NCBI RefSeq assembly: GCF_947623445.1
Contig: NC_135240.1
Span: 12,090,001 to 12,154,000, forward strand
Length of the DNA stretch: 64,000 bases
Direction: 5' to 3'
Source: Clavelina lepadiformis
Lineage: Eukaryota; Chordata; Ascidiacea; Aplousobranchia; Clavelinidae
The notes beneath the pieces were generated by a model, which was not told the DNA's origin, made no database searches, and saw only the letters and a list, made by a program, of their open reading frames with translations. Positions 470 to 22,389 of this stretch are shown in pieces; the first letter of the stretch is position 1; every line of letters begins with the position of its first letter. Position numbers and translations under genes: made by a program.

Positions 470-1474
470 AAATCCAATTCATAAGAGAAGAAACTTGTTC
501 GAGTTCCATTCGTCGTTGGAAGACCCGAAAAGCAGCGATATTGACAATATCCCCGTAAATAGTTTGTCACCTTATTATGAAAATGGCGGGCAATCAAAGG
601 AATCAGTGGATTTGGAAAATGTTGTTAAATCAAAGCTTCTTGATTACATGCTTCCAAGAGACCTATATGAGCCATTTCTTGACCAGTAAGGCTCTACCAT
701 AGAGTTCAAAAATTTTCGCTCTATTTGCACAGTGCAAAATTTACACAAAAAGTGTGTTGAAAATTTTACAAACAATATGGGTTTATTGAATAAAACCTAC
801 TCGATAGTAGATGTTATAAAAGTGTGTGCAATGACGGAAGCGTTTAAAATGTATGCAATATGTTCACAGAGAGAACACCTTTTCGCCTAATTTGGTCAAG
901 AAACAAGACGGTTATCGCTATCGGTCATATCAAACGTGGGCTAATAAACCACAACAAATTAATCAAGAAAGCGGCAGGTGATGTATATGCAAAAATCGAT
1001 AAACGTATATATGGAACGTTGGCAGGTTTTTAAAGAAAGCTCATACTCAATCAAGCAAAATTTTTCATGTGCTATTTCGTTTTTTTTTCACACATGTTGA
1101 TGGCTTTTAAAAATAACGCACATTTACAATTCAGAAATAAGTTTTGCATATTTTATTTTTTGTAAAGTCTTTATTTTGCGCCTTGCAGTTTCAACCCATA
1201 CCTTGCAGCACTCATGCCTCCTGCATCGAAGCGAGAGGGCACACTGTTATACAATAACATGTAAGTTACTTTTTGATACCTAGTTTACAGGCGTTTCCAA
1301 CAATGCAAAATATCTCTCATTTTAAATATTTAAAAGTTACAAACTGGCTTAAATTAAAATAGTTGTTTATAACTGTTTTTCTGCAGGTTTGCAAACTCGA
1401 GACGGCACCGATATTGGCAATTACAACAACAAATCTTGCAGTCCGTAATAAATTCGAAAAAACGAAAATCATAA
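470..1474 (+). CDS. Secreted peptide precursor, copy A (exon 1 outside window)
   Basis: Coding exons are 470-685, 870-977, 1189-1260 and 1387-1474. The signal-peptide exon must lie just left of position 1, because the window opens within intron 1. The frame closes through all four exons with phase-2 introns. The precursor part is nearly the same as in copies B and C (KRRNLFEFHSSLE, SVDLEN, LLDYMLPRDLYEPFLD, LAALMPPASKR). After KR the segment is private: it opens EGTLLYNNM, then has FANSRRHRYWQLQQQ, and returns to the shared tail SVINSKKRK, ending in S where the others end in Y. The mature segment is Arg, Gln and Tyr rich. I do not recognise the family. The poly(A) hexamer found after copies B and C reads aataggag here. 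Product function is unknown; a secreted, convertase-processed peptide is the inference. Confidence 0.8.
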
Positions 1475-2748
1475 AAGCAAGCAGAGGCGTAACTGTTATT
1501 ATTAACAAATAACAACTGTTATTGGCAGCAAATTTTTAAAAATCAGTATTTGCTGGGATTTGTAGATGATGCACATTTATTTTTCTCTTTTTCCAAACAG
1601 TTCATAAATAGGAGTAATGAGAAAATTTTCAGATGTCAGTTTTAATACATTTAAAAAAGTACTTCTTGTATTCTACGTAAGAAAGTTTGTTGTGTTTCTT
1701 TAGTATTTCACCACAATGTAATGATTTTAAAAAAGGCGTTGACGACTGATTAATTATTTTTGGCTTTAACCATGTGAATGGAAATCAACAACTCTGAAAA
1801 CCGTATGTTATTTGTGTATTTGTGCTGGCCAGGCTGAGTCAACAGTTCTGCATGCTTGCTTACTAATGTAAAACATGCCTTTGGCTCATCTACGCAACAA
1901 ATGATCAACCAATTGTTTGAATTTGTTGTTTGTTTTTATTGCAGTGACTAATACGTTGTGCTGCTTTTAGTACATGTTCAGCGCTTAATTTGGTCATTTT
2001 TGTTTATTTTTTAGGATCAAAGGTTAGCAATTCCTTTTAAATTTGCATAGGTAAACACAGTTTAGATACTTTAACATAAAACAATAAATTTAAAGCGAAC
2101 ACAAAGTATTTTCAAGTATTTTACTTTATAATTGAAGTTATTTCATAGAAAATATCTGCATAAGCCAATATACTAACAAGTGAAAAATTTAATCCGTGCC
2201 TGTAAAACGTCAGCAGTCAGTTACAAATATCGTTTAGTAGTTGCAAACAGCACAAATATGTTACAGCTACAACAAAGGTAATTAGGCTACAAACAGCTAC
2301 TGTTACAAAAATTTAAATCGTTTAGCGATTTATACTGTAGAACAGGTTATAGGTAAAGCAACGGACAAAAATTAACAACTAAAATATTTAATGGCAAAAT
2401 TATAAAGTATTGGCAGATCTGTAGTTTTAAAATAATCTCAGGAACACGCTTTTAATTGAAAGATATGCAACTTATATGGCTGTTAGTACAGAAAGCAAGT
2501 TTCAGTTTTCAAGATGCAATAATTTCATCGGCAATATAGTCAGCATTAAGCAATATGACAAGAAAGATTACTTTTTAGAAAAAGTATGTAAGTATTCATT
2601 AAAAATACTGTAAAAAAACATAGCAAAATATATGCTAAGTAAATATCGCATGCATGCACTACAAAAAAGGATAATTACAAAAAAGCTAGAAATGCACAAC
2701 AAAAGCAGTATAAATATAAGATTTAAAATAATTGTGTCCGGTACACCA

Positions 2749-5548
2749 TTATGCCTTCTTCGAGCGAGTTTTTCGCGGTATGGGGACGCAGAGTTCGCAA
2801 ACACGTGGAGACGCCACTGCGTTTTTAGCCGCGTACGAAACTTTGAAAGGATCGTGGTCTTGATCTAAAGCTGTCCTTGTTTTAGGGCGTGCTAGTTGGT
2901 GTTGTCTTGTGGAGGCCTGAAAGAGAAACACTGTTTATGTATAGAATACCATGAGAAACTAAGTTTCCAAGTATAGTTTCTCGATTATGTATTCTGGTAA
3001 CGTCAACGTATCTTTCTAAATACAGTCGACTCCGCTTAATTCGGACACTTTGGTTCCGCTCACTTTTGGCCGAATTAAGCGGAGAAACGGCTTTGTCCGA
3101 ATTAAGCGGAAAATCAATTGTTCGTTTCATGGTCATGCATAAAGGCAAAAAACGCATTTAAAATACTGTAGTGTTGCGTAATAAATGAATTGCAGCTGGG
3201 CTATACTGCAGTAACTGGCACTGATGGCATAAAACGTCTTCGTTTACTTTAGTGAGCAATTTCACTTTTTGTGCTAAACTTTTCTGTACAATTTTGTCCT
3301 ACAAGATGGACGCAATTGTACCGAAGTAAAAGCGACTATGAAGCTGGCACGGCGTTATATGAGTTCATTGTCGATTGTTACTACATCGATCGTCATTGTT
3401 TCACCATAATCACTCATAATGCAATTGAATCTTGTCTTAAAACGAACGAAGTACTGTTTATTGTGTCATAACCTAACGATGGAATTGCGAACCTGTGTCC
3501 GAATTAAGCGGAGAATTGTCCGAATTAACAGGAGTTTTTTACGTTCAATTTTTACTTTTGTTCCGTTCCCGAACATTTTGGCCGAATAAAGCGGTTGTCC
3601 GGGTTATCCGGTGTCCGAATTAAGCGGATTCGACTGTATGGTATTTTGTGATAACATTTGTGAGTTTAACTTCGCCTCATGTTTTTGCTGGAAATGTGGG
3701 AGTATTGTGCAAAGCTACGCTTCAACACTTCTTTATGCTGGTAGCGGTAAATGAAATGCCAATTAGAATTTGTTACGCATAGGAGCAAAATTTACAGTAT
3801 GGAAGAACGAGTAATTCGAAGCAAAAAGCACCAGAGCAAGAATAGCTGAAAACATTTTAATGGCATAGGTTTGGAATAAACTCAGTTTCCAGTAATGGAC
3901 GTTTCGAGTAAAAAATATATTCATTCTCAATTCGAGGTAAATTAATTTTAAACCAAGCAAATATTTTCACCTTATATGGAAACAGAGCGTAATAGCAAGG
4001 TTGTTAGATTTGTTTAAAAAGAACAGATCAATCTAATATCACGCTCTGTTCCCATATGAGAAGCAAATAATCTCATCTTCCAAATTTTTTCTACCTCGCA
4101 TTAAGAATGAGTAATTGAGTATAGTTATTACTGGAAACTTCCACAATTTAAACGCTTGCATCAACTCTTGTTTTTTTTGCGTAGAACTGGTAAGAATATT
4201 TTCTACAGTTGCAAACAAAACAATGTTTAACGGTACCATATAATGAACAAAAGGTAACAGGTGTACTTTTTGGCTTTAAAGTTTTGTTATGTACTTAAGC
4301 ATAAGAATTCATTTTAATAAGCTACATTTTCCCACTTTTTGTGACTCAAAAATTTTGAATTCGGTCAATCACATGATATCTAAAATTGACAAAGTTGCTA
4401 AATGACTATTAGGTACCTGAGCATTTTTTGCAGCATCAGATACAGGCCAAACCACTGGCCTGTTATCATCATATTCTTTTGGGGTTTCTTTCGGCTCAGC
4501 TAGCTGTTCCAGTCTTCCAGAAGCGACATGACTAAGAGACTCTTTTGGAATATCACTTTTCCACTCCCCCCAGTCCCAGGAACTATTTGATTTAACAAGC
4601 AGGAGATCATATTGTTTTGGACGTGACAAGTCAAGCAACCTTTAAATAGTAAAATGATGGGTTAGATATACTCCATATACTGGTAGTTCTTAAACTTGTG
4701 TATTGAACCTTCCAAGTCTCATAAATGTAATCACCAGAACTTTTGTTAAAACTCAAAAATGTCCACCATACGCATAGCATGTCGTGTGTCTTAAACTGAA
4801 CCGAGTTGAAGAAAAATTACTCTATTTTAATGAAATCGTAAAAACAGGCAGCAAGTAAGTATGTAACCCTACTTCTCTTCAAACACTTGTTACCTTTTAG
4901 TAGAAACAAATTTCTGGGCAGAATCACTGACTGAAGTGTGAACAGATTGTTCTGGTTGCCAGTCTGGGTGAAACTTCTTGTGCTGAGCTAACTGCTTTAG
5001 CCTCTCTTTTTCAGGGTAGGTAAGAGCTGACTTATTCACATTCCAAATCGGTGATGGTCGATCGGGTAAAAATTCTTTGTGAATGGTCTTGCTTTTTATA
5101 AGTTGTTCTAACCGAGGGGATATATCTGCAAAGTTGTGAAGCTGTGAAATATCGATGTTATATGAAAATCCTGTATCTTCTTAAATAGAAAATTAATTTT
5201 CTCATTACCAATGTAGAATTTGTAATAATTATATTGATAATAACAAATACAGTATGGAGGTAATAGGCTTATATTACAAGCATATCTATCAAAGCTATGG
5301 ATTTCATTGTTATAATAATTATTATTATTCATCGTGAGAAATATTAACATTCAGAGAGTTCTCTATTAAAAACAATTAATTAAGTTATTTGTGTCTAATT
5401 TTAAAACAATTAGCAGTTTTACCAAAATCTGTTGGAGAGGTGTGTGGTTCTTGGTCAACCCAATATACTGATCTTCGATCTTCCTTAAAACCAGGATGTA
5501 CTGGCTTGTGCATGGCCAGAACATCAATCTTTGAATTAGCGGTTGACT
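2749..5548 (-). pseudogene. THEG-repeat gene, copy A, lacking its start exon
   Basis: Minus-strand exons 5423-5548, 4894-5125, 4417-4639 and 2749-2916 are joined by GT-AG introns whose phases close. THEG repeats are seen as KIDVLAMHKPVHPGF, SPRLEQLIKSKTIHKEF, ERLKQLAQHKKFHPDW, RLLDLSRPKQYD, RLEQLAEPK with NRPVVWPVSDAAKNA, and the C-terminal AAKNAVASPRVCELC. THEG (SPMAP2) family proteins are linked to spermatid and sperm flagellar microtubules. The exons read open, but the exon carrying the start codon in copy C has no counterpart here because the array junction cuts intron 1. A protein could only start at an internal Met (LAMHK) or from a new upstream exon, which I did not find. A pogo-like element lies just upstream (in gene sense) of the last exon. 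Confidence 0.7.
3023..3636. mobile_element. pogo/Tigger-like MITE in unit A
   Basis: The 614-bp insert is bounded by near-perfect inverted ends (CAGTCGACTCCGCTTAATTC and its complement) and by TA on both sides (3021-3022, 3637-3638). Units B and C show the empty site. The inside is studded with copies of ccgaattaagcgg in both orientations. A TA target duplication and CAGT ends are typical of pogo/Tigger elements of the Tc1/mariner superfamily. No transposase frame is recognisable. Confidence 0.85.
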
Positions 5549-5992
5549 CTAAAACAGAGATTTAAGTGGCTACATGATGAGGGACACAAAAATGCATATG
5601 TATTGTTTACATTTTCTAGCAAGTATTCATGGCAATAAATTATTTTCTACGTCCACTCTAAAACAATTAGCAAAAGCCATAAAATTCTTTTTCCAATACA
5701 ATAGTTGTTTGCAATTCCGTAGTGTTGGATAAACATTTCAGACAATATCTGGCCATGAAATGTCTCAGAATAGTAGTAACTGTAATTTATTGTTACTGTT
5801 GGATGTTGCTTCAGCACAGGTCCAGCATATAAAAAAAGGTTTAAGGTATGACAATTTTTAGAAAAAATATGAACCAAAATGTAGTGGTGTCGGATGTACG
5901 AGAGAAAAATACAATTTTCTGGCTTGCTGAACGACAACTCAATTTGCTTTGATTTGTGAACTTTTGGTAAAAAATTTGTGTTATTTCGTGTT

Positions 5993-6239
5993 ATGTGGCC
6001 ATTGTATCAATTGTTGAGTTAGGCTGTGAGCATAGATGCGGTTACCTGATTTTTATTGTGTAACTTTCAGTGACTTCTAAACGAATTGCCCGTCGAATAC
6101 TGAAAGGTCGTGTTTTAAATGGTGTCTGTGTATTGCAGGGAGTGTGTTTTCTTGGCCACCTTGGTGCGCGTGTCCAAGAACGAAACAATAGATCAAGTGT
6201 TTTCATAACATCCAAGTTATATTGATACAATGGCCACAT
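5993..6239. repeat. Inverted repeat beside the unit junction (unit B)
   Basis: A perfect 19-bp inverted repeat lies at 5993-6011 and 6221-6239 (atgtggccattgtatcaat and its complement), enclosing about 210 bp. It begins 9 bp after the A/B junction. It may be the ends of a small DNA element, but no target duplication is clear. Confidence 0.6.
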
Positions 6240-6443
6240 TATTGAATTACGCACATTTTTAAATGGCCACACGGTATATGGTTTAAGGCGTTTGAAAAGG
6301 TATTATTTTTATTGGGAACTGTCCTATTAACTTATTATGTATAGGTATGAGTTTAATTATCTCCAAAATATACTTTTTCAACCAATATGTCTTTAATCAA
6401 GAAGACTACAAGAAACACGGACAATAATTATCTTTCTTATTGA

Positions 6444-6786
6444 CAGGGTTGCCATCAGTCTCAACTCAAAAATAAGGACGACTAGAAAATGAACGACGAA
6501 TACCTCCTTAAACAGTGTACAACAAGAGAAAGCAACCAATGTTCTAAAAAAAAAAACAAGACACTATCTGCATGTTCATAATTTTGGTATCTCTTTGGTA
6601 CAAAATGGTATCGTAAAGGTGAAAAAATGCCCAAAATAAGGACAAAAGTGCCCACCTCCGCCCTAAAAATAAGGACGAAAGTGAAATTAAGGACATTTCT
6701 TAGAAAAAAGGACAAACATATTTTCTAAGACACGGACTTTTAAAATAAGGACAAATCTTAGAAATAAGGACGGTATGGCAACCCTG
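6444..6786. mobile_element. hAT MITE in spacer of unit B
   Basis: Ends are CAGGGTTGCCAT and ATGGCAACCCTG, with an 8-bp duplication CTTATTGA (6436-6443, 6787-6794). The inside repeats aataaggac motifs. It is shared with unit C, so it was present before that duplication. Confidence 0.85.
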
Positions 6787-9690
6787 CTTATTGACCTATT
6801 TTAAACCGCAGTTGTACTATTTTATATTAGGTATCTGCCCCTTTTGTGTATCTGTTAACCACAAGCTTAGGCAAAGTGTGTAGTATAATTCCTAATCAAA
6901 TAATCGTTATTATTTGACTGTTGATTATTATAGCCAAAGGTATAATTATAAGGTTTTAGCGATAAAGAATAGTTTTTTTATACCACTATATTGATTTGAA
7001 AAATTATCTTATCTTTGGTAATATATATAGTTCTTCCGGCTTTCCTCGGGCCTCTTACTTCCCTGCGGTTGATGCTTTGCGGGAGTCAGTATTTGACAAG
7101 CAAACACAAATTAGAACCTCGTCGAACCGTGTCTTGTGTAATGTGTAAACACCATTTGTAACTACGTACGACCATGGACTCATTACTTTTATTGCCCAAG
7201 CTCGAAAAACAGACGCTACGAGTGTTTTCTTTCATATCGACGGGAATTCGAATGTATGTTATCGCCATCAACTGACAACGATTGAAAAAAAGAAGAAACT
7301 ACGCATTGTTAATAACCTAGATACTCAATTATAGTGCAAAGCTTGTTGACATTGTTTCTTTAGAAGAGATTCTTAGAAATAATTTTGATCAAAAACACTC
7401 ACGTTTTTGCGCTTTTCTAGAATTACGAAATACATTCTCTTCACAAGAAATGACGCAAGTAATGTCAAACTTCCCTTCTCCAGGTTATCTTTCCTCTTAC
7501 AATCTTTATCGTTTACGATGAAAAACAATCCTTTATTTATGTATAAGGACCTTCTCCAAAGATGACCATAATCTAAAAAGTTGATATGAAATCCACATAT
7601 ATTTCAGTCCATAATTTTGAAATAGGCAATATCAATATCAATATCCAGGACGTGTATTCTATTATATACAATATATTTTAATGTAGTCATATGTATTATA
7701 ATCTTCGTGTGGTCAAAGGTGTCGCTTTGTTGTAAGTTAGATATGTCACTGCTCAGTACTCGCAATATCCAACAATGACTATATGTAAAGTATAAAGTGA
7801 TTTATTTGTAGTTAATAAAAGATACATATGCTGTACATATAAAACGTTACAAAAAATATAACCTTTTCACATACGTGTAAGGCCCAATGGATAATGTATA
7901 CTTGCACTGCTTGTACTTGCCCATCAATCGCTAACAATAAAACACAAAACAAAAAACTAATAAGTAAGCTTAAAGGGTTTGTAAGTTTTTTTGGTTAGTT
8001 GTTATTATTTTTGGTAATGCCGGATATTACCCGACTTTTAAAACATTTCATATTTCAGTCACACTTCAACGGTTATTAGCGCGTTTCTTACTCGCTTCGA
8101 ACGCAACATTTCATGGTGGTTATACGAGGTAAATCCGTTTTTTATTTCCAACATCATCCAAAAAAGCGACAAGTTTTTGGTGTCGTGAATGACGTAACAT
8201 TGACGTTATAGTTAAAATGAAATAACACTGAAAATACACACGTCACAAATAGTCTATGCGGTTTTAAAGCATCATCTGGCAGATAAGGATGATGGGTTTA
8301 TATTTCCGTAACTTACACAAGTTTTAACATTTATATAGACAGGTTACGTTTAGAAGGCAGAGTCAAACACCGCAGGGGTGCAGGCCACACAATGTACATC
8401 CTGCATAGGCGAAAATCAATAACGTGTTTACGTAAAAACCTAAATCTCTAGTTTTGATACGTACGGGTTATGCTATACTACAATAGATAATAATTGGATT
8501 TATATCCCAAATGGGAATTGTAATTTTTCCGACACCAAGAAATCCATTACACTTTTTGTAACTCTACAGAAAAAAAAGAAATACGAATATACGGCAATGT
8601 ATTGCAACGTCCTTGGTTTGGATAAGCAATATACTCGATGTAATATTGTAACCAAGTTTTTCTTGGGCCAGGAGGCCTCCCGCTTTTACAGCTAGTCGAT
8701 AAGCCGGTTTCTGCCCTCCTATCTTTTATGAGTCTTCCTTTAATAAAAACAAACGTCTTCCTTGTATTAAAAACGAAGGTAGACTGAATTAACTCTTCTC
8801 CAAAAAACCACGGCGTACGCAATTAATTAATTATCATTCCGGTGTGAGAATGGAAATTGCGGGCAGCGTAATATACCCCGGGGGGAGTTGTGGGGCGTAA
8901 AACGTATACGTGTGTAGAAAACTTACTAACAATAAAAGGAATCACAAGTGAAATATCGATGAATTACTAATACTAAATAAAAACGCAGTCACACATTATG
9001 GCCACAACAATACGGGTGAAATACATCTTAATATAAATCTAAAAACACATCGTGGAATATACATCTAACTGTACAACTAAAACGTATCAATGTGCAGTGC
9101 TACATAATAAAACAAGGGTGTAGAAATAATCCCGTGACAATATCACAGTCACAACAATATCGGAAAATTCAAATATAAAAATTTCCAGCTCGTGTACCCA
9201 ATTTCTACATATGTTTTTGATTTTTCATCACGAAAGCTATTATAAACACCATAATACAGCTAAGTGTTTCAAATGGGCACAGGGGCGAAATTCCTAAATT
9301 AAGCGATCAGTTGCATCTTCTGTTAGTGTTATTGTCAAACCCATAGCTTATATATGTTTTCCATGTATTTATATGCACTATATCGAATCACAGCGTGACC
9401 TGATAAAAACCGTTTGCGTGTAGCAAGGACTTTTCTGTAAAAATCACGTTCTCCTGAAATTGTAGATCAAAATGTAAACCAACAAGTCTGTTACGAAAAG
9501 GTTTAGTGCCGAGTACTTCTCTTTAGCCGGTGTTTAGTTTGGGTGAAATATCTTCATATAACATCTGTAGATATAAATTTGCCATTGACACTTTTCCAGG
9601 AAGTTACAGTCCGTTCTAAAACAACTAGAGTTCCACGCGAAAAAAGCTTGTTTCATCGATTCCCTTTTTTTCTGTCTGCGCTTGTACGAT

Positions 9691-9727
9691 TATAAATACC
9701 AAGAGCACATACAGATAAGATCAGTCC
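9691..9727 (+). promoter_or_regulatory. TATA box and initiator of peptide gene copy B
   Basis: TATAAATA at 9691-9698 is followed 30 bp later by an initiator-like TCAGTCC at 9721. The leader up to the ATG at 9991 contains a possible donor (gccgtgagtg, about 9761) and a possible acceptor (tttttcatcag, ending about 9945), so the 5' UTR may be spliced. Confidence 0.6.
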
Positions 9728-9990
9728 AGCGATATATTAAACTCGCAATACTGCTAAAGAGCCGTGAGTGTAGAAAACTTTAAGCTTTGTCCAACGTTTT
9801 TTTTCCTGACTTAATTGTAAGGAAGACGGATGGTTTGAGCAGTTGGGCCAAAAGAGTTAATTTTGTTTTTTTATTGTTCAATTATTTTGTAGTTATTTTA
9901 CAACCGCCATAGATTTTATAAGTTAGTAAAAACATTTTTCATCAGATTTAAATAAGTTATACCTTAGTTGATGTTTGAACCTTGATTAAG

Positions 9991-11624
9991 ATGCATAGAA
10001 TGAAAACAGGTTTCCCGATGTTGTTGTCTCTTCTTGCCATATTTTACTTCATGCTGATGTTTTGTCCAATAGCGCCTATACACGGGTAAGAAGAACATCA
10101 TTATTGATTTAGACATCATCGCAAACTATAATCGTTTTTTTATGATTACTTTGTCAATTCAATTATTTTAGAGTTTGTTAATGCTGTGCAACTTTATTCT
10201 TTTATTGATTTATTCAACATGCATCAATGATAAAACATATTGATAACATCGTTTCTCCATTTTCTTTTGTAAAGAATTAGAAAATGAAAATTAAATAACA
10301 ATAAACAAAACTGAAAACATGAGAACACTGAAATTCCAAACAAAGTGTTATATCCTGTAGGTCATAAATAAGTATTTGTATAGTTATTTAACCGCAAAAA
10401 ATGACAAATTCCATGAACTAACCTTGAATATAGCCTAAAATAAGTTTTAATGCCTGCAAAATTACTGCATGCTTTGAAATAGTTTTCCAGTGATTTTAAG
10501 GGTACTTTTCAGGATCCTGTAAGAGTGTAAGCTATAGTTACTTTTAAAGTTTATAAACATAAAACAATTTTAAATGAGCTACATTTTACCCAATATGACT
10601 GTTATACTGTAATTTTTAGAAATCCAACTCATAAGAGAAGAAACTTGTTCGAGTTCCATTCGTCGTTGGAAGGCTTGAAAAACAGCGATATTGACAATAT
10701 CCCCGTAAATAGCTTGTCACCCTACTATGAAAATGGCGGGCAGTCAAAGGAATCAGTGGATTTGGAAAATTTCGTTAAATCAAAGCTTCTTGATTACATG
10801 CTTCCAAGAGACCTATATGAGCCATTTCTTGACCAGTAAGGCTCTACCATAGAGTTCAAAAATTTTCGCTCTATTTGCACAGTGCAAAATTTACACAAAA
10901 AGTGTGTTGAGAATTTTACAAACAATATGGGTTTATTGCATAAAACTTACTCTGTAGTAGATGTTATAAAAGTGTGTGCAATGACGGAAGCGTTTACAAT
11001 ATATGCAATATGTTCACAGAGAGAACACCTTTTCGCCTAATTTGATCAAGAAACAAGACGGTTATCCTTATCGGTCATATCAAACGTGGGCTAATAAACC
11101 ACTACAAATTAATCCAGAAAGCGACAGGTGATGTATATGCAAAAATCGATAAACGTATATATGGAGCGTTGGCAGGTTTTTAAAGAAAGCTCATATTCAA
11201 TCAAGCAAAATTTTTCATGTGCTATTTCGCTTTCTACCCACACATGTTGATAGCTTTTAAAAATAACGCACATTTACAATTCAAAAATAAGATTTGCATA
11301 TTTCATTTATTGTAAAGTCTTTATTTTGCGCCTTGCAGTTTCAACCCATACCTTGCAGCACTCATGCCTCCTGCATCGAAGCGAGAGAGCACAAAGGAAC
11401 ACGATAACATGTAAGTTACTTTTTGATACCTAGTTTACAGGCGTTTCTAACAATGCAAAATATCTCTCATTTTAAATATTTAAAAGTTACAAACTGGCTC
11501 AAATTAAAATAGTTGTTTATAATTGTTTTTCTGCAGGAAAGCAATCGCGGAACAGCAAGAATTAGCGAAATTGCGACAAGTTATCTTGCGGTCCGTAATA
11601 AATTCGAAAAAACGAAAATATTAA
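9991..11624 (+). CDS. Secreted peptide precursor, copy B (192 aa)
   Basis: Five coding exons: 9991-10085, 10620-10835, 11020-11127, 11339-11410, 11537-11624. All introns are GT-AG and all are phase 2, giving 192 aa. Residues 1-32 are a signal peptide (MHRMKTG, then a hydrophobic core LLSLLAIFYFMLMF). A Lys-Arg-Arg at 37-39 and Lys-Lys at 114-115 are possible processing sites. The middle is acidic and Asn/Ser rich. PPASKR ends at 155; residues 156-182 form the hypervariable segment (starts ESTKEHDNM; contains QQELAKLRQVILR), followed by the constant SVINSKKRK and a final Tyr. The start is the first Met in frame; the ATG at 9971 meets a stop after four codons. A TATA box and initiator lie upstream. 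No cysteines follow the signal peptide, so no disulfide fold is expected. The family is not recognised; candidates are a defence peptide, hormone or gamete ligand. Confidence 0.82.
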
Positions 11625-11756
11625 AAACAAGCAGAGGCGTAACTCTTATTATTAACAAATAACAACTGTTATTGGCAGCAAATTTTTAAAAATCAATATT
11701 TGCTGGGATTTTTAGACGATGCACATTAATTTTTTTCTTTTTCCAAACAGTTCATA

Positions 11757-11762
11757 AATAAA
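11757..11762 (+). terminator. Poly(A) signal, peptide gene copy B
   Basis: AATAAA lies 133 bp after the stop codon. Copy A has aatagg at the matching place. Confidence 0.5.
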
Positions 11763-12218
11763 AGTAATGAGAAAATTTTCAGATGTCAGTTTTAATACAT
11801 TTAAAAAAGTACTTCTTGTATTCTACGTAAGAAAATTTCTTGTGTTTCTTTAAAAATTCCACCACAATGTAATGATTTTAAAAAAGGCGTTGACGACTGA
11901 TTAATTATTTTTGGCTTTAACCATGTGAATGGAAAGCAACAACTCTGAAAACCGTATGTTATTTGTGTATTTGTGCTGGCCAGACTGAGTCAACAGTTCT
12001 GCATGTTTGCTTACTAATGTAAAACATGCCTTTGGCTCATCTACGCAACAAATGCTCAACCAATTGTTTGAATTTGTTGTTTGTTTTTATTGCAGTGACT
12101 AATACGTTGTGCTGCGTTTATTACATGTTCAGCGCTCAATTTGGTCATTTTTGTTTATTTTTTAGGATCAAAGGTTAGAAATTCCTTTAAAATTTGCATA
12201 GGTAAGCACAGTTTAGAT

Positions 12219-12715
12219 CAGGGGTGTCAAACTCAATTGCACCAGGGGCCAAAACTCATAACTTATTTAACGTCGCGGGCCGTAAGGATAAAACATGATT
12301 AAATATTTTGTGACACGAGTACATGAATTGGAAAAGGCAGCGAAACAACACCAAATTTTTGATGTTTTTGACGATTTTTAACTGGGCTATTTTTGATTAT
12401 TCTTCTCTTACATCATTATGTTTCATTCATCTCCTTGCAAAAACATTAAAGAATTAACAAACAATAAAGAAAAAAGCAGCCCAGATTACAAGCGTTAGAC
12501 TAAATCCATTTATGCTATCGTATGATGGGGCAACTGTTGTGCTGCTGTATTGTGCGACTTGTTATAATCTTGTTCCTTGCTTGAAAAAACTAAGTTATAA
12601 TGTACAATGATCTCGCGGGCCGGAAATAGTTCAATGTATAAAATAGCATTGCGGGCCTAGTTTTATTGTAAAGCGGACCGCATGTGGCCCGCGGGCCGGG
12701 AGTTTGACACCTATG
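12219..12715. mobile_element. hAT MITE in unit B (shared with C)
   Basis: The element is 497 bp, with ends CAGGGGTGTCAAACTC and GAGTTTGACACCTATG and an 8-bp duplication GTTTAGAT (12211-12218, 12716-12723). Unit A has the empty site. GC-rich gcgggcc motifs lie near both ends. It is non-autonomous. Confidence 0.9.
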
Positions 12716-13414
12716 GTTTAGATACTTTAATAGAAAACGAAAATTTAAAGCGAACACAAAGTATTTTCAAGTATTTTACTTTATAATTGAAGTTATTTCA
12801 TAGAAAATATCTGCATAAGCCATTATACTAACAAGTTAAAAAATTAATCCGTGTCTGCAAAACGTCAGCAGTCAGTGACAAATATCGTTTAGTAAGCTTA
12901 GTTGCAAACAGCACAAATATGTTACAGCTACAACAAAGGTAATTAGGCTACAAACAGCTACTGTTACAAAAATTCAAATCGTTTACCGATTTATACTGTA
13001 GAACAGGTTATAGGTAAAGAAACGGACAAAAATTAACAACTAAAATATTTAATGGCAAAATTATAAAGTATTGGCAGATCTGTAGTTTTAAAATAATCTC
13101 AGGAACACGCTTTTAATTGAAAGATATGCAACTTATATGGCTGTTAGTACAGGAAGCAAGTTTCAGTTTTTAACATGCAATAATTTCATCCGCAATATAG
13201 TCAGCATTAAGCAATATGACAAGAAAGATTACTTTTTAGAAAAAGTATGTAGGCTAAGTATTCATTAAAAATACCGTAAAAAAACATAGCAAAATATATG
13301 CTAAGTAAATATCGCATGCATGCACTACAAAAAAGGATAATTACAAAAAAGCTAGAAATGCACAACAAAAGCAGTATAAATATAAGATTTAAAATAATTG
13401 TGTCCGGCACACCA

Positions 13415-16312
13415 TTATGCCTTCTTCGAGCGAGTTTTTCGCGGTATGGAGACGCAGAGTTCGCAAACACGTGGGGACGCCACTGCGTTTTTAGCCGCGT
13501 ACGAAACTTTGAAAGGATCGTGGTCTTGATCTAAAGCTGTCCTTGTTTTAGGGCGTGCTAGCTGGTGTTGTCTTGTGGAGGCCTGAAAGAGAAACACTGT
13601 TACCAGAAACTTTATGTATAGAATACCATGAGAAACTAAGTTTTCAAGTATAGTTTCTCGATTATGTATTCTGGTAACGTCAACGTATCTTTCTAAACAT
13701 GGTATTTTGTGATAACATTTGTGAGTTTAACTTCGCCTCATGTTTTTGCTGGAAATGTGGGAGTATTGCGCAAAACTACGCTTCAACATTTCTTTATGCT
13801 GGTAGCGGTAAATGAAATGCCAATTAGAATTTGTTACGCACAGCAGCAAAAATTACAGTATGGAAGAACGAGTAATTCGAAGCAAAAAGCACCAGAGCAA
13901 GAATAGCTGAAAACATTTTAATGGCATAGGTTTGGAATAAACTCAGTTTCCAGTAATGGACGTTTCGAGTAATTACTATATTCATTCTCAATTCGAGGTA
14001 AATTAATTTTAAAGCAAGCAAATATTTTCACCATATATGGAGACAGAGCGTAATAGCAAGGTTGTTAGATTTGTTTAAAAAGAACAGATCAATCTATTAA
14101 TTATCACTAGGGCCCGCAAAAGTCAATAATGTCAAAAATTTTTAAGCACCTCGTCTGACCACGAATCAAAGAATAAAGTTGTTTTCAGCACCTAGGGGAT
14201 TGTTTCTAAGAAGTTAATAGGTCAAAATAAAGTCAAAATTTACAATAAAGTCAAAATTTTCAATAAAGTCAAAATTTGTCAAAATATGGCTTTTTACAAA
14301 GTTTTTGTGTTTCTTGAGAGTTGTTTTTGTAAAAATCCTCTTGGAAGCATTGTAAATCAGGAACTGCGACACAATTAAACCATATTAACCGATAAAAGCA
14401 GGAAATAAGTCACAATGCCCACTTGGATCAGCAGTAACTTTTATCGCAAATTCTCCATTGTTTATTCATTGTTACGTATTTAAATAATCCTTATGCAGCG
14501 TGAAGGGGGTTACATTACTTTTTCCCTGTTTAATTTGCTGTTTATTAGAATTTACCATGCGGAGAAAATCGAGGCAAAGTGCCCTTTTCACAAGGACAAA
14601 ATAACACAAGCTATACCTAAATCTATCGCCAAAAAACACGAAGCACTTTTTATAATCCATAAAACACCTTGAATTTTCGACAAAATATTACGTTTGGGTC
14701 TGAAATCGACAAAATATTATGTTTGGGTAACTGGAGGAAGAACTGTGGCCTCTACAAATAAGCAATTTTGTTAGGTCAAAATAAAAATGGCCCTAATTAT
14801 CACGCTTCGTTCCCATATGAGAAGCAAATAATCTCATCTTCCAAATTTTTTCTACCTCGCATTAAGAATGAGTAATTGAGTATAGTTATTACTGGAAACT
14901 TCCACAATTAAAACGATTGCATCAACTCTTCTTTTTTTGCGTAGAACTGGTAAGAATATTTTCTACAGTTGCAAAAAAAAACAATGTTTAACGGTACCAT
15001 ATAATGAACAAAAGGTAACAGGTGTACTTTTTGGCTTTAAAGTTTTTTTATGTACTTAAGCATAAGAATTCATTTTAATAAGCTACATTCTCCCACTTTT
15101 TGTGACTCAAAAATTTTGAATTCGGTCAATCACATGATGTCCAAAATTTATAAAGTTGTTAAATGACTATTAGGTACCTGAGCATTTTTTGCAGCATCAG
15201 ATACAGGCCAAACCACTGGCCTATTATCGTCATATTCTTTTGGGGTTTCTTTCGGCTCAGCCAGCTGTTCCAGTCTTCCAGAAGCGACATGACTAAGAGA
15301 CTCTTTCGGAATATCACTTTTCCACTCCCCCCAGTCCCAGGAACTATTTGATTTAACAAGCAGGGGATCATATTGTTTTGGACGTGACAAGTCAAGCAAC
15401 CTTTAAATATTAAAATGATGAGTTAGATATACTCCATATATACTAGTAGTTCTTAAAATTGTGTATTGAACCTTTCAAGTCTCATAAATGTAATCACCAT
15501 AACTTTTGTTAAAACTCAGAAACGTCCACCATTTGCAGAGCATGCCGTGTGTCTAAAACTGAACCGAGTTGAAGAAACATTACTCCATTTTAATGAAATC
15601 GTAAAAACAGGCAGCAAGTAAGTATGTAACCCTGCTTCTTTTCAAATGCTTGTTACCTTTTAGTAGAAACAAATTTCTGGGCAGAATCACTGACTGAAGT
15701 GTGAACAGATTGTTCTGGTTGCCAGTCTGGGTGAAACTTCTTGTGCTGAGCTAACTGCTTTAGCCTCTCTTTTTCAGGGTAGGTAAGAGCTGACTTATTC
15801 ACATTCCAAATCGGTGACGGTCGATCGGGTACAAATTCTTTGTGAATGGTCTTGCTTTTTATAAGTTGTTCCAACCGAGGGGATATATCTGCAAAGTTGT
15901 GAAGCTGTGAAATATCGATGTTATATGAAAATCCATGTATCTTCTTAAATAGAAAAATAATTTTCTCATTACCAATGTAGAATTTGTAATAATTATACTG
16001 ATAATAACAAATAAAGTATGGAGGTAATAGGCTTATATTACAAGCATATCTATCAAAGCTATGGATTTCATTGTTATAATAATTATTATGATTCATCGTG
16101 AGAAATATTAACATTCAGAGAGTTCTCTATTAAAAACAATTAATTAAGTTATTTGTGTCTAATTTTAAAACAATTAGCAGTTTTACCAAAATCTGTTGGA
16201 GAAGTGTGTGGTTTTTGGTCTACCCAATATACTGATCTTCGATCTTCCTTAAAACCAGGATGTACTGGCTTGTGCATTGCCAGAACATCAATCTTTGAAT
16301 TAGCGGTTGACT
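13415..16312 (-). pseudogene. THEG-repeat gene, copy B, lacking its start exon
   Basis: Minus-strand exons 16187-16312, 15657-15888, 15178-15400 and 13415-13582 have lengths identical to copy A (126, 232, 223, 168 nt) and intact frames and splice sites. The last exon reads CVSIP where copy A reads CVPIP. As in copy A, no start exon is present, since the DNA beyond 16747 is the spacer of unit C rather than THEG intron 1. A 688-bp hAT-like element (14108-14795) sits in the last intron. The reading frames remain open, so the copy is either recent or expressed from another start; I call it a probable 5'-truncated duplicate. Confidence 0.7.
14108..14795. mobile_element. hAT-like MITE, private to unit B
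   Basis: The element is 688 bp with ends TAGGGCC and GGCCCTA and an 8-bp duplication ATTATCAC (14100-14107, 14796-14803). The inside has repeated aaagtcaaaattt tracts. Units A and C lack it. Confidence 0.8.
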
Positions 16313-16755
16313 CTAAAACAGAGATTTAAGTGGCTACATGATAAGGGACACAAAAATGCATATGTATTGTTTACATTTTCTAGCAAGTATTCATGGCAAT
16401 AAATTATTTTCTACGTCCACTCTAAAAAAATTAGCAAAAGCCATAAAATTCTTTTTCCAATACAATAGTTGTTTGCAATTCCGTAGTGTTGGATAAACAT
16501 TTCAGACAATATCTGGCCATGAAATGTCTCAGAATAGTAGTAACTGTAATTTATTGTTACTGTTGGATGTTGCTTCAGCACAGGTCCAGCATATAAAAAA
16601 GGTTTAAGGTATGACAATTTTTAGAAAAAATATGAACCAAAATGTAGTGGTGTCGGATGTACGAGAGAAAAATACAATTTTCTGGCTTGCTGAACGACAA
16701 CTCAATTTGCTTTGATTTGTGAACTTTTGGTAAAAAATTTGTGTTATTTCGTGTT

Positions 16756-17002
16756 ATGTGGCCATTGTATCAATTGTTGAGTTAGGCTGTGAGCATAGAT
16801 GCGGTTACCTGATTTTAATTGTGTAACTTTCAGTGACTTCTAAACGAATTGCCCGTCGAATACTGAAAGGTCGTGTTTTAAATGGTGTCTTTGTATTGCA
16901 GGGAGTGTGTTTTCTTGGTCACCTTGGTGCGCGTGTCCAAGAACGAAACAATAGATCAAGTGTTTTCATAACATCCAAGTTATATTGATACAATGGCCAC
17001 AT
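16756..17002. repeat. Inverted repeat beside the unit junction (unit C)
   Basis: Same structure as at 5993-6239, again starting 9 bp after the B/C junction. Confidence 0.6.
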
Positions 17003-17206
17003 TATTGAATTACGCACATTTTTAAATGGCCACACGGTATATGGTTTAAGGCGTTTGAAAAGGTATTATTTTTATTGGGAACTGTCCTATTAACTTATTA
17101 TGTATAGGTATGAGTTTAATTATCTCCCAAATATACTTTTTCAACCAATATGTCTTTAATCAAGAAGACTACAAGAAACACGGACAATAATTATCTTTCT
17201 TATTGA

Positions 17207-17547
17207 CAGGGTTGCCATCAGTCTCAACTCAAAAATAAGGACGACTAGAAAATGAACGACGAATACCTCCTTAAACAGTGTACAACAAGAGAAAGCAACC
17301 AATGTTCTAAAAAAAAACAAGACACTATCTGCATGTTCATAATTTTGGTATCTCTTTGGTACAAAATGGTATCGTAAAGGTGAAAAAATGCCCAAAATAA
17401 GGACAAAAGTGCCCACCTCCGCCCTAAAAATAAGGACGAAAGTGAAATTAAGGACATTTCTTAGAAAAAAGGACAAACATATTTTCTAAGACACGGCCTT
17501 TTAAAATAAGGACAAATCTCAGAAATAAGGACGGTATGGCAACCCTG
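17207..17547. mobile_element. hAT MITE in spacer of unit C
   Basis: This is the same insertion as at 6444 in unit B, with the same flanking CTTATTGA duplication and 341 bp against 343 bp. Confidence 0.85.
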
Positions 17548-20470
17548 CTTATTGACCTATTTTAAACCGCAGTTGTACTATTTTATATTAGGTATCTGCC
17601 CCTTTTGTGTATCTGTTAACCACAAGCTTAGGCAAAGTGTGTAGTTTAATTCCTAATCAAACAATCGTTATTATTTGACTGTTGATTATTATAGCCAAAG
17701 GTATAATTATAAGGTTTTAGCGATAAAGAATAGTTTTTTTTATACCACTATATTGATTTGAAAAATTATCTTATCTTTGGTAATATATATAGTTCTTCCG
17801 GCTTTCCTCGGGCCTCTTACTTCCCTACGGTTGATGCTTTGCGGGAGTCAGTATTTGACAAGCAAACACAAATTAGAACCTCGTCAAACCGTGTCTTGTG
17901 TAATGTGTAAACACCAATTGTAACTACGAGCGACCATGGTCTCATTACTTTTATTGCCCAAGCTCGAAAAACAGACGCTACGAGTGTTTTCTTTCATATC
18001 GACGGGAATTCGAATGTATGTTATCGCCATCAACTGACAACGATTGAAAAAAAGAAGAAACTACGCATTGTTAATAACCTAGATACTCAATTATAGTGCA
18101 AAGCTTGTTGACATTGTTTCTTTAGAAGAGATTCTTAGAAATAATTTTGATCAAAAACACTCACGTTTTTGCGCTTTTCTAGAATTACGAAATACATTCT
18201 CTTCACAACAAATGACGCAATTAATGTCAAACTTCCGTTCTCCAGGTTATCTTTCCTCTTACAATCTTTATCGTTTACGATGAAAAACAATCCTTTATTT
18301 ATGTATAAGGACCTTCTCCAAAGATGACCATAATCTAAAAAGTTGATATGAAACCCACATATATTTCAGTCCATAATTTTGAAATAGGCAATATCAATAT
18401 CAATATCCAGGACGTTTATTCTATTATATACAATATATTTTAATGTAGTCATATGTATTATAATCTTCGTGTGGTCACAGTTGTCGCTTTGTTGTAAGTT
18501 AGATATGTCACTGCTCAGTACTCGCAATATGTGTAAAGTATAAAGTGATTTGTAAAGACTATATGTAAAGTATAAAGTGATTTATTTGTAGTTAATAAAA
18601 GATACATATGCTGTACATATAAAACGTTACAAAAAATATAACCTTTTCACATACGTGTAAGGCCCAATGGATAATGTATACTTGCACTGCATGTACTTGC
18701 CCATCAATCGCTAACAATAAAACACAAGACAAAAAACTAATAAGTAAGCTTAAAGGGTTTGTAAGTTTTTTTGGTTAGTTGTTATTATTTTTAGTAATGC
18801 CGGATATTACCCGACTTTTAAAACATTTCATATTTCAGTCACACTTCAACGGTTATTAGCGCGTTTCTTACTCGCTTCGAACGCAACATTTCATGGTGGT
18901 TATACGAGGTAAATCCGTTTTTTATTTCCAACATCATCCAAAAAAGCGACAAGTTTTTGGTGTCGTGAATGACGTAACATTGACGTTATAGTTAAAATGA
19001 AATAACACTGAAAATACACACGTCACAAATAGTCTATGCGGTTTTAAAGCATCATCTGGCAGATAAGGATGATGGGTTTATATTTCCGTAACTTACACAA
19101 GTTTTAACATTTATATAGACAGGTTACGTTTAGAAGGCAGAGTCAAACACCGCAGGGGTGCAGGCCACACAATGTACATCCTGCATAGGCGAAAATCAAT
19201 AACGTGTTTACGTAAAAACCTAAATCTCTAGTTTTGATACGTACGGGTTATGCTATACTACAATAGATAATAATTGGATTTATATCCCAAATGGGAATTG
19301 TAATTTTTCCGACACCAAGAAATCCATTACACTTTTTGTAACTCTACAGAAAAAAAAGAAATACGAATATACGGCAATGTATTGCAACGTCCTTGGTTTG
19401 GATAAGCAATATACTCGATGTAATATTGTAACCAAGTTTTTCTTGGGCCAGGAGGCCTCCCGCTTTTACAGCTAGTCGATAAGCCGGTTTCTGCCCTCCT
19501 ATCTTTTATGAGTCTTCCTTTAATAAAAACAAACGTCTTCCTTGTATTAAAAACGAAGGTAGACTGAATTAACTCTTCTCCAAAAAACCACGGCGTACGC
19601 AATTAATTAATTATCATTCCGGTGTGAGAATGGAAATTGCGGGCAGCGTAATATACCCCGGGGGGAGTTGTGGGGCGTAAAACGTATACGTGTGTAGAAA
19701 ACTTACTAACAATAAAAGGAATCACAAGTGAAATATCGATGAATTACTAATACTAAATAAAAACGCAGTCACACATTATGGCCACAACAATACGGGTGAA
19801 ATACATCTTAATATAAATCTAAAAACACATCGTGGAATATACATCTAACTGTACAACTAAAACGTATCAATGTGCAGTGCTACATAATAAAACAAGGGTG
19901 TAGAAATAATCCCGTGACAATATCACAGTCACAACAATATCGGAAAATTCAAATATAAAAATTTCCAGCTCGTGTACCCAATTTCTACATATGTTTTTGA
20001 TTTTTCATCACGAAAGCTATTATAAACACCATAATACAGCTAAGTGTTTCAAATGGGCACAGGGGCGAAATTCCTAAATTAAGCGATCAGTTGCATCTTC
20101 TGTTAGTGTTATTGTCAAACCCATAGCTTATATATGTTTTCCATGTATTTATATGCACTATATCGAATCACAGCGTGACCTGATAAAAACCGTTTGCGTG
20201 TAGCAAGGACTTTTCTGTAAAAATCACGTTCTCCTGAAATTGTAGATCAAAATGTAAACCAACAAGTCTGTTACGAAAAGGTTTAGTGCCGAGTACTTCT
20301 CTTTAGCCGGTGTTTAGTTTGGGTGAAATATCTTCATATAACATCTGTAGATATAAATTTGCCATTGACACTTTTCCAGGAAGTTACAGTCCGTTCTAAA
20401 ACAACTAGAGTTCCACGCGAAAAAAGCTTGTTTCATCGATTCCCTTTTTTTCTGTCTGCGCTTGTACGAT

Positions 20471-20507
20471 TATAAATACCAAGAGCACATACAGATAAGA
20501 TCAGTCC
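20471..20507 (+). promoter_or_regulatory. TATA box and initiator of peptide gene copy C
   Basis: The same TATAAATA and TCAGTCC pair as in unit B occurs at the same 30-bp spacing (20471 and 20501). It sits inside the block that shows no visible difference from unit B, so the two genes should share regulation. Confidence 0.6.
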
Positions 20508-20770
20508 AGCGATATATTAAACTCGCAATACTGCTAAAGAGCCGTGAGTGTAGAAAACTTTAAGCTTTGTCCAACGTTTTTTTTCCTGACTTAATTGTAA
20601 GGAAGACGGATGGTTTGAGCAGTTGGGCCAAAAGAGTTAATTTTGTTTTTTTATTGTTCAATTATTTTGTAGTTATTTTACAACCGCCATAGATTTTATA
20701 AGTTAGTAAAAACATTTTTCATCAGATTTAAATAAGTTATACCTTAGTTGATGTTTGAACCTTGATTAAG

Positions 20771-22389
20771 ATGCATAGAATGAAAACAGGTTTCCCGATG
20801 TTGTTGTCTCTTCTTGCTATATTTTACTTCATGCTGATGTTTTGTCCAATAGCGCCTATACACGGGTAAGAAGAACATTATTATTGATTTAGACATCATC
20901 GCAAACTATAATCGTTTTTTATGATTACTTTGTCTATTCAATTATTTTAGAGTTTGTTAATGCTGTGCAACTTTATTCTTTTATTGATTTATTCAACATG
21001 CATCAATGATAAAACATATTGATAACATCGTTTCTCCATTTTCTTTTGTAAAGAGTTAGAAAATGAAAATTAAATAACAATAAACAAAACTGAAAACATG
21101 AGAACACTGAAATTCCAAACAAAGTGTTATATCCTGTAGGACATAAATAAGTATTTGTATAGTTATTTAACAGCAAAAAATGACAAATTCCATGAACTAA
21201 CGTAGAATATAGCCTAAAATAAGTTTTAATGCCTGCAAAATTACTACATGCTTTGAAATAGTTTTCCAGTGATTCTAAGGGTACTTTCAGGATCCTGTAA
21301 GCTATAGTTACTTTTAAAGTTTATAAACATGGAAAAAATTTAAATGAGCTACATTTTACCCAATATGACTGTTATACTGTAATTTTTAGAAATCCAATTG
21401 ATAAGAGAAGAAACTTGTTCGAGTCCCATTCGTCGTTGGAAGGCTTGAAAAACAGCGATATTGACAATGTCCCCGTAAATAGCTTGTCACCCTACTATGA
21501 AAATGGCGGGCAGTCAAAGGAATCAGTGGATTTGGAAAATTTCGTTAAATCAAAGCTTCTTGATTACATGCTTCCAAGAGACCTATATGAGCCATTTCTT
21601 GACCAGTAAGGCTCTACCATAGAGTTCAAAAATTTTCGCTCTATTTGCACAGTGCAAAATTTACACAAAAAGTGTGTTGAGAAACAATATGGGTTTATTG
21701 CATAAAACCTACTCTGTAGTAGATGTTATAAAAGTGTGTGCAATGACGGAAGCGTTTACAATATATGCAATATGTTCACAGAGAGAACACCTTTTCGCCT
21801 AATTTGGTCAAGAAACAAGACGGTTATCCTTATCGGTCATATCAAACGTGGGCTAATAAACCACTACAAATTAATCCAGAAAGCGGCAGGTGATGTATAT
21901 GCAAAAATCGATAAACGTATATATGGAGCGTTGGCAGGTTTTTAAAGAAAGCTCATATTCAATCAAGCAAATTTTTTCATGTGCTATTTCGCTTTCTACC
22001 CACACATGTTGATAGCTTTTAAAAATAACGCACATTTAAAATTCAAAAATAAGATTTGCATATTTCATTTATTGTAAAGTCTTTATTTTGCGCTTTGCAG
22101 TTTCAACCCATACCTTGCAGCACTCATGCCTCCTGCATCGAAGCGAGACAGCGTAGCGCAATATAATCACTGGTAAGTTACTTTTTGATACCTAGTTTCC
22201 AACAGGCGTTTCCAACAATGCAAAATATCTCTCATTTTAAATATTTAAAAGTTACAAACTGGCTAAAATTAAAATAGTTGTTTATAACTGTTTTTCTGCA
22301 GGATTGCAAAATGGAAACAGCAAAAATTAGCGAAAAATCGACAAGGTCTCTTGGGGTCCGTAATAAATTCGAAAAAACGAAAATATTAA
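20771..22389 (+). CDS. Secreted peptide precursor, copy C (192 aa)
   Basis: Five coding exons: 20771-20865, 21390-21605, 21782-21889, 22101-22172, 22302-22389, with the same lengths and phases as copy B. Exon 1 differs from B by one silent base. Precursor changes are few (IDKRR for THKRR, FESHSS for FEFHSS, DNVPVN for DNIPVN). The segment after PPASKR is strongly different: it opens DSVAQYNHW, then IAKWKQQKLAKNRQGLLG, and then rejoins SVINSKKRKY. This version is Trp and Lys rich and, with its basic tail, strongly cationic; it looks like a cationic amphipathic membrane-active peptide, although that is inference. A canonical AATAAA follows at 22522. The gene converges on the unit C THEG gene, the only one of the three with its own start exon. 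Confidence 0.82.

Follow-up and report, generated by a model that had tools for sequence, protein, structure and literature searches.

Introduction

The propiece of frog antimicrobial precursors ends in the dibasic pair Lys-Arg (KR). In the excerpts of the literature drawn on here, the frog-skin precursors of the temporin, brevinin and palustrin groups combine a conserved signal, an acidic propiece and a C-terminal mature domain that is hypervariable and has codons under positive selection (PMC7106915); the myticalins of Mytilus are cysteine-free, taxonomically restricted and hyperdiverse peptides that have a dibasic site and whose coding sequence is interrupted by a conserved phase-one intron (PMC12294457); the styelins and clavanins of Styela clava are linear and helical, the former 32 residues long and Phe-rich, the latter His-rich and amidated (PMC7460354); and the Ciona genes s-Themis-B and s-Themis-B2 are duplicated and lie about 70 kb apart (PMC7018956). 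Here we analyzed a stretch of 64,000 nucleotides (the window; positions 12090001–12154000 of contig NC_135240.1 from the 209 Mb genome of the ascidian Clavelina lepadiformis), which contains part of a tandem array of predicted secreted-peptide genes. The copies share most of their precursor (the chassis) and differ in a segment of 27 codons after the last KR site (the cassette). Judged from its sequence, the array probably represents an orphan family of secreted peptides on which diversifying selection acts; we give this reading a probability of about 0.72, an estimate that covers its genetic and processing part and excludes the role of the peptides.

The Clavelina genes resemble frog-skin precursors in their signal-like start, the acidic propiece before a dibasic KR and the hypervariable, positively selected mature part. 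Unlike those precursors, to which no sequence match was found, they have a mature segment that is split by an intron, constant in length in the four types found, followed by a KKRK tail and charged between 0 and +4. With the myticalins, as the excerpt presents them, the Clavelina peptides have in common the lack of Cys, restricted occurrence, hyperdiversity, a dibasic site and an intron inside the coding sequence. Again no sequence match was found, and the myticalins, described as antimicrobial, have precursors with a C-terminal extension, whereas the variable part in Clavelina is itself C-terminal. The Clavelina peptides resemble styelins and clavanins as linear, predicted helical peptides of a tunicate, but they are neither Phe-rich nor His-rich and carry no Gly before the dibasic site. 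The parallel with the s/v-Themis genes of Ciona, within the portion of that work used here, lies in duplicated ascidian genes that are alike except for a hypervariable region, and in a link to sperm; the Themis proteins, however, are large domain proteins acting in sperm and egg-coat pairs, and no homology was seen.

Results

Six tandem copies carry four distinct cassettes

A Blast comparison of unit B with the surrounding 124 kb, in which pieces of up to 150 bases were not listed, revealed six tandem units starting at contig positions 12060937 (c1), 12070580 (c2), 12080213 (c3), 12089846 (A), 12099980 (B) and 12110760 (C), as well as a partial unit upstream of the c1 unit. An earlier reading made from the letters of the window alone (the sequence-only reading) had described three tandem genes. 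Their tandem, secreted-type character stands; the copy number is six, as c1, c2 and c3 lie upstream of the window. Unit B as a whole spans window positions 9980–20759 (no strand assigned), with units A and C adjoining. The first five units are 9.6–10.8 kb long, and unit C matches over about 6 kb only, to window position 26807. Whole-unit divergence ranges from 0.04% (c2–c3) to 4.3% (c3–C). An intact 192-codon precursor in five exons is present in all six copies, and no cassette contains an indel or a stop. The variable segments fall into four distinct types: c1; A, identical to c2 and c3; B; and C.

Variability ends at the KR site, the two intron borders and the tail

Our recount reproduced the central figures of the sequence-only reading. 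Between B and C, 26 of the 81 cassette bases differ and 17 of the 27 codons are changed, all 17 by replacement and none silently; between A and B, 29 of 81 bases differ and 19 codons are changed, 18 by replacement and 1 silently. Its description of the flanks was equally borne out. None of the 46 bases before the segment is variable among c1, A, B and C, and the 27 bases after it are identical in A, B and C, the single variable column (11595) being due to c1. The intron inside the segment, for which about four substitutions and one small indel had been noted, has 5 variable columns out of 126 among the four types, together with one 3-nt indel; it is invariant over 25 columns at its start and 13 at its end. 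By comparison, 14 of 26 columns vary in the first cassette part and 28 of 55 in the second. Copies c2 and c3 were excluded from the pairwise counts since their cassettes equal that of A.

The B–C difference of 26/81 compares with 22/1548 in the non-coding bases of 9980–12124 (Fisher p 2e-23) and with 3/126 in the intron inside the segment (Fisher p 2e-9), both p values being post hoc because the segment was picked for its variability. Away from the segment, windows of 81 nt reached a maximum of 10–13 differences in the five pairs scanned. Variability is thus bounded by the KR site, both intron borders and the conserved tail.

Replacement changes predominate in the cassette

Codon likelihood analysis, limited in its three-way form to A, B and C, gave a ratio of replacement to silent rates (omega) of 14.8 or 16.0 for the cassette, at a transition/transversion ratio (kappa) of 1 or 2, respectively. 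Twice the log-likelihood difference (2dlnL) from omega 1 was 11.8 or 15.9. Upstream of the cassette, omega was 0.48 or 0.61. The total silent length by likelihood was 0.076 in the cassette versus 0.088 or 0.073 upstream. The Nei–Gojobori method gave for B–C a replacement divergence (dN) of 0.50 and a silent divergence (dS) of 0.14 in the cassette, and 0.016 and 0.011 upstream.

In pairwise likelihood, omega exceeded 1 in five of six pairs (2dlnL 6.0–10.2), which are not independent of one another; c1–A was not significant. The sequence-only reading had held that equal silent and replacement rates in further copies would count against it. The further copy c1 shows a replacement excess against B (2dlnL 8.1) and C (7.5), and its comparison with A, in which two changes are available, is the one that does not reach significance.

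The copies have exchanged segments

Along the unit, the odd one out among A, B and C is A over about 9980–13280, and B over about 13580–15600. From about 15680 onwards it is C, as far as the C unit extends; past that point (about 16757 in B coordinates) the C alignment is not meaningful. The closest pair therefore switches twice. Because the odd one out changes along the unit in this mosaic manner, we conclude that the copies have exchanged segments.

The precursor is predicted to release a 32-residue peptide

Residues 1–32 of the precursor are signal-peptide-like as judged by eye. They are followed by KRR at residues 37–39, an acidic propiece at 40–113 with a net charge of −8 to −9, KK at 114–115 and a second conserved stretch at 116–153. 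KR at 154–155 precedes a predicted peptide of 32 residues (156–187), the first 27 of which are variable. The precursor has the conserved tail NSKKRK, in which KKRK occupies 188–191. A single residue then precedes the stop; c1 and A have Ser there, B and C Tyr. The dibasic sites at 37–39, 114–115, 154–155 and 188–191 are retained in all four types. Cys is absent beyond residue 32, and Gly is absent before KKR, where all four types have Ser.

The net charge of the four peptide types is 0 (B), +2, +2 and +4 (C), and the C peptide is rich in Trp and Lys by eye. AlphaFold2, run on the database protein P0001 alone, placed helices at 3–24, 154–166 and 169–191. Ten-residue blocks of the C-terminal helical region had predicted local distance difference test (pLDDT) scores of 48, 58, 74 and 82; pLDDT was mostly below 50 over residues 31–152, and the mean was 51.6. 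From these features we infer secretion, cleavage at KR and KKR, and a partly helical peptide.

Gene structure and database models

All exons inside the window lie on its plus strand. The window begins about 50 nt after the end of the first exon of copy A. Exon 2 of this copy, which encodes the acidic propiece, occupies 470–685, as supported by splice sites and the match to P0001. P0001 likewise supports exon 3 at 870–977 (36 codons). Exon 4 at 1189–1260 encodes PPASKR and then the first part of the variable segment (1235–1260), and exon 5 at 1387–1474 holds the second variable part (1387–1441), the conserved tail and the stop. In copy B, the signal-peptide-like exon 1 is at 9991–10085, exon 2 with the acidic propiece at 10620–10835, exon 3 with its 36 codons at 11020–11127, exon 4 at 11339–11410 (KR, then variable 11385–11410) and exon 5 at 11537–11624 (variable 11537–11591, then the tail to the stop). 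The corresponding exons of copy C are 20771–20865, 21390–21605, 21782–21889, 22101–22172 (variable 22147–22172) and 22302–22389 (variable 22302–22356). The 108-nt exon 3, whose skipping would preserve the reading frame, had been overlooked in the sequence-only reading and is contained in P0001.

P0001 (192 amino acids, "unnamed protein product", C. lepadiformis) joins all five exons. It is one residue off c1, has the c1 cassette and belongs to a cluster of 4 members. The second database protein, P0002 (104 amino acids, uncharacterized protein LOC143449218), comes from a different assembly record and equals residues 1–104 of copy B.

A THEG/SPMAP2-like sperm gene is co-amplified

Each of the six units also carries a THEG/SPMAP2-like sperm gene, and the four exons compared are free of premature stops. 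In unit B, it lies on the minus strand at 13415–16312, with four coding exons identified and a provisional 5' end; the N-terminal part of the THEG database model hits an in-frame stop in this unit. Its database cluster, named "sperm microtubule associated protein 2-like", comprises 6 members, which lie on one contig. Used as a control for the peptide gene, the THEG gene showed proportions of replacement differences (pN) of 0.007–0.013 and of silent differences (pS) of 0.040–0.063 in five pairs, and 0 and 0 in c1–A. A shared promoter of the two genes was considered and rejected as not tight: the THEG 5' exons lie near 16.2–17.0 kb, and the next peptide gene begins at 20.77 kb.

Searches for relatives

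In a whole-genome protein search with expectation values (E) up to 10, in which the best candidates were scored, all 28 exon matches fell within the six copies. In the protein collection, the matches were to C. lepadiformis proteins only, 2 of 31 candidates in one search and 1 of 491 in another, by a method that depends on shared words of five residues. The 31-candidate search and the first Pfam and PDB runs used a 156-residue precursor without exon 3; Pfam was run again with the full precursors, and the protein collection and PDB with their alignment. Pfam returned no family for any of five full precursors. NCBIfam gave no family over threshold, its two best hits (E 0.13 and 0.28) being taken as chance. 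The B and C peptides had no PDB match up to E 10 (those of A and c1 were not searched alone). PDB matches of the precursor were dismissed as chance, namely two at E 0.76 and 1.2 for the 156-residue version and four at E 0.055–1.5, including CRISPR Csm4, in the repeat. A resemblance to class B GPCR hormones or other neuropeptides of solved structure, suggested by CRF- or VIP-like tails, was also rejected, given the lack of PDB matches for the B and C peptides and the Ser before KKR in place of a Gly amidation signal. In the portions covered of the open-licence PubMed Central literature on Clavelina and ascidian peptides, no description of this family was found; one paper there treats another peptide, from Ciona. 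Within the limits of these searches, the precursor family appears restricted to this locus and species.

Neighboring features

Elsewhere in the window, a basic helix-loop-helix open reading frame (36707–37183, plus strand; Pfam HLH) appears to be of the achaete-scute kind by eye, and a retroelement reverse-transcriptase open reading frame (29838–31220, plus strand; Pfam RVT_1) lies in a stretch with a raised guanine plus cytosine content of 0.44. Among ten flanking open reading frames compared with Pfam, one RhoGAP fragment scored above the cut-off, one Tmemb_cc2 match fell below it and eight had no family at E 0.01.

Discussion

We propose that each gene would consist of a constant chassis, made up of the signal peptide, the acidic propiece, the KR site and the NSKKRK tail, and of a fixed-length cassette that would be cut out at KR and KKR to give a partly helical peptide of about 32 residues. 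Selection at the amino-acid level would make the tandem copies diverge in the first 27 residues of this peptide. Everything else in the unit, including the introns, would be mixed and homogenized by unequal crossing-over and gene conversion. The chassis would thus be kept alike by exchange and the cassettes kept apart by selection.

Several observations weigh against this interpretation. Just three cassettes are well separated, and they were selected after looking variable; those of c1 and A differ by two replacements only. The fit became worse when the branch lengths found upstream were imposed on the cassette (2dlnL 9.3–9.7, three branches), so a single tree with a single omega does not describe both the cassette and the upstream region. 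In all five pairs compared (c1–A left out), the cassette had a greater Nei–Gojobori silent divergence than the upstream region, 0.12–0.27 versus 0.01–0.08; Fisher p values for this silent excess, from rounded counts and uncorrected, were 0.047 (B–C), 0.043 (c1–C), 0.10, 0.30 and 0.64. The flanks may accordingly be somewhat younger than the cassettes. On the side of processing and expression, the A-type and c1 cassettes contain an internal RR (169–170) that a convertase might cut, and the amphipathicity of residues 9–30 was not above that of shuffled sequences in any of the four types (helical moments, P 0.59–0.96). P0002, which models copy B in the database, extends just one base beyond exon 2. 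AATAAA occurs 132 bases past the stop in B (window 11757) and at the equal offset in C; neither it nor ATTAAA or AGTAAA was found within about 420 columns past the stop in c1, c2, c3 and A. With these canonical polyadenylation signals missing from four copies, expression may be poor in some of them.

The age of the cassettes leads to a different history. Alleles kept by balancing selection over long times are familiar from the major histocompatibility complex. The cassettes could likewise be ancient alleles or paralogues under balancing selection whose flanks were recently homogenized, with converted cassettes selected against. Exchange among the copies is real, the branch proportions of cassette and upstream region are unlike, and the raised Nei–Gojobori silent divergence points in the same direction; moreover, the B–C flanks differ by 1.4% (22/1548), which would demand a cassette omega of about 45. 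On the other hand, the likelihood estimate of the total silent length of the cassette resembles that of the upstream region, and fixing the B–C silent divergence at the upstream value of 0.0093 costs less than 1 in 2dlnL. We regard old cassettes in young flanks as possible but, on balance, doubtful. Such a history would alter the age of the cassettes and not the selection on them: their total silent length has a 95% bound of about 0.44 at kappa 1 and of about 0.37 at kappa 2, and at a length of 0.4 omega is still 2.7–3.0. Selection for replacement is therefore needed whatever the age of the cassettes.

A mechanism that rewrites the segment itself, by hypermutation or by copying from a donor pool, would generate the diversity by targeted mutation instead of selection. 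The very high local divergence would suit it, as would the somewhat raised Nei–Gojobori silent counts and the 8 transitions and 18 transversions in the B–C cassette, compared with 71 and 50 over the rest of 9980–16500. Nevertheless, the changes halt at both intron borders and skip the intron, and a codon-blind process would not yield an omega of 15. Because variability stops at these borders and the intron is shared, donor copying and local hypermutation explain the pattern poorly. Donor cassettes elsewhere in the genome were sought in DNA and peptide searches, with the best candidates scored, and none was found; the DNA of C exon 5 matched the six copies only, and the B and C peptides matched each other only. 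We consider targeted mutation highly improbable and retain diversifying selection on the cassette.

As to the role of the peptides, membrane-active host defence, as in frog skin, the mussel myticalins and the styelins and clavanins of Styela, seems the likeliest; we put forward a surface or haemocyte defence set tentatively and by analogy. Architecture and selection resemble those of frog antimicrobial precursors (PMC7106915, in excerpt), the predicted length of 32 residues equals that given for styelins in the excerpt of PMC7460354, and the C peptide has the charge and the Trp and Lys content that such a role would favor. However, the B peptide is uncharged overall, no Pfam or NCBIfam family over threshold and no PDB match to the B and C peptides supports the assignment, and the fixed length and conserved C-terminal part would suit a receptor ligand at least equally well. 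The cationic amphipathic helix was tested by helical moment and not found, the moments of all four types lying within those of shuffles, and for this reason we do not file the family as a frog-type antimicrobial precursor. The sequence-only reading had proposed an undescribed family of diversifying secreted peptides on the model of amphibian defence and venom peptides. The signal-like start, the acidic propiece, the KR site, an omega far above 1 and the failure of the searches made to find a relative in other species agree with the first part of that proposal; the charges of 0 to +4 and the lack of amphipathicity in residues 9–30 lend no support to a defence or venom nature.

Next after defence, and in our view unlikely, comes a recognition ligand in reproduction or in colony self/non-self discrimination, in which the peptide of each copy or allele would be read by a matching partner. 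The variable front, conserved tail, constant length and charge changes would fit such a ligand, and a THEG/SPMAP2-family sperm gene is part of the unit. The excerpt of PMC7018956 describes the Ciona self-sterility genes s-Themis-B and s-Themis-B2 as near-identical outside a hypervariable region, although the Themis proteins it describes are fibrinogen-like and polycystin-like and not short peptides. The co-amplification of THEG may also be hitchhiking, there is no tight shared promoter, and the only second full-length record, P0001, has the c1 cassette. Taken further, the array could be a compact self/non-self or mating-type peptide locus that was amplified with a sperm gene and offers a distinct ligand per copy on a common chassis; exchange between copies would then spread the chassis while selection would keep the cassettes apart. 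We judge this extension quite improbable.

The array thus appears to hold a small and apparently young orphan family in which the intron that interrupts the variable segment acts as an internal control, so that selection can be read at nearly base-level resolution and hypermutation can be separated from selection at the intron borders. Tunicates are the sister group of vertebrates. The array provides a defined chordate locus at which the drivers of peptide diversification, whether pathogens, fouling, mates or colony recognition, could be tested, and the co-amplified THEG gene together with the Ciona Themis parallel makes a role in reproduction or recognition worth testing.

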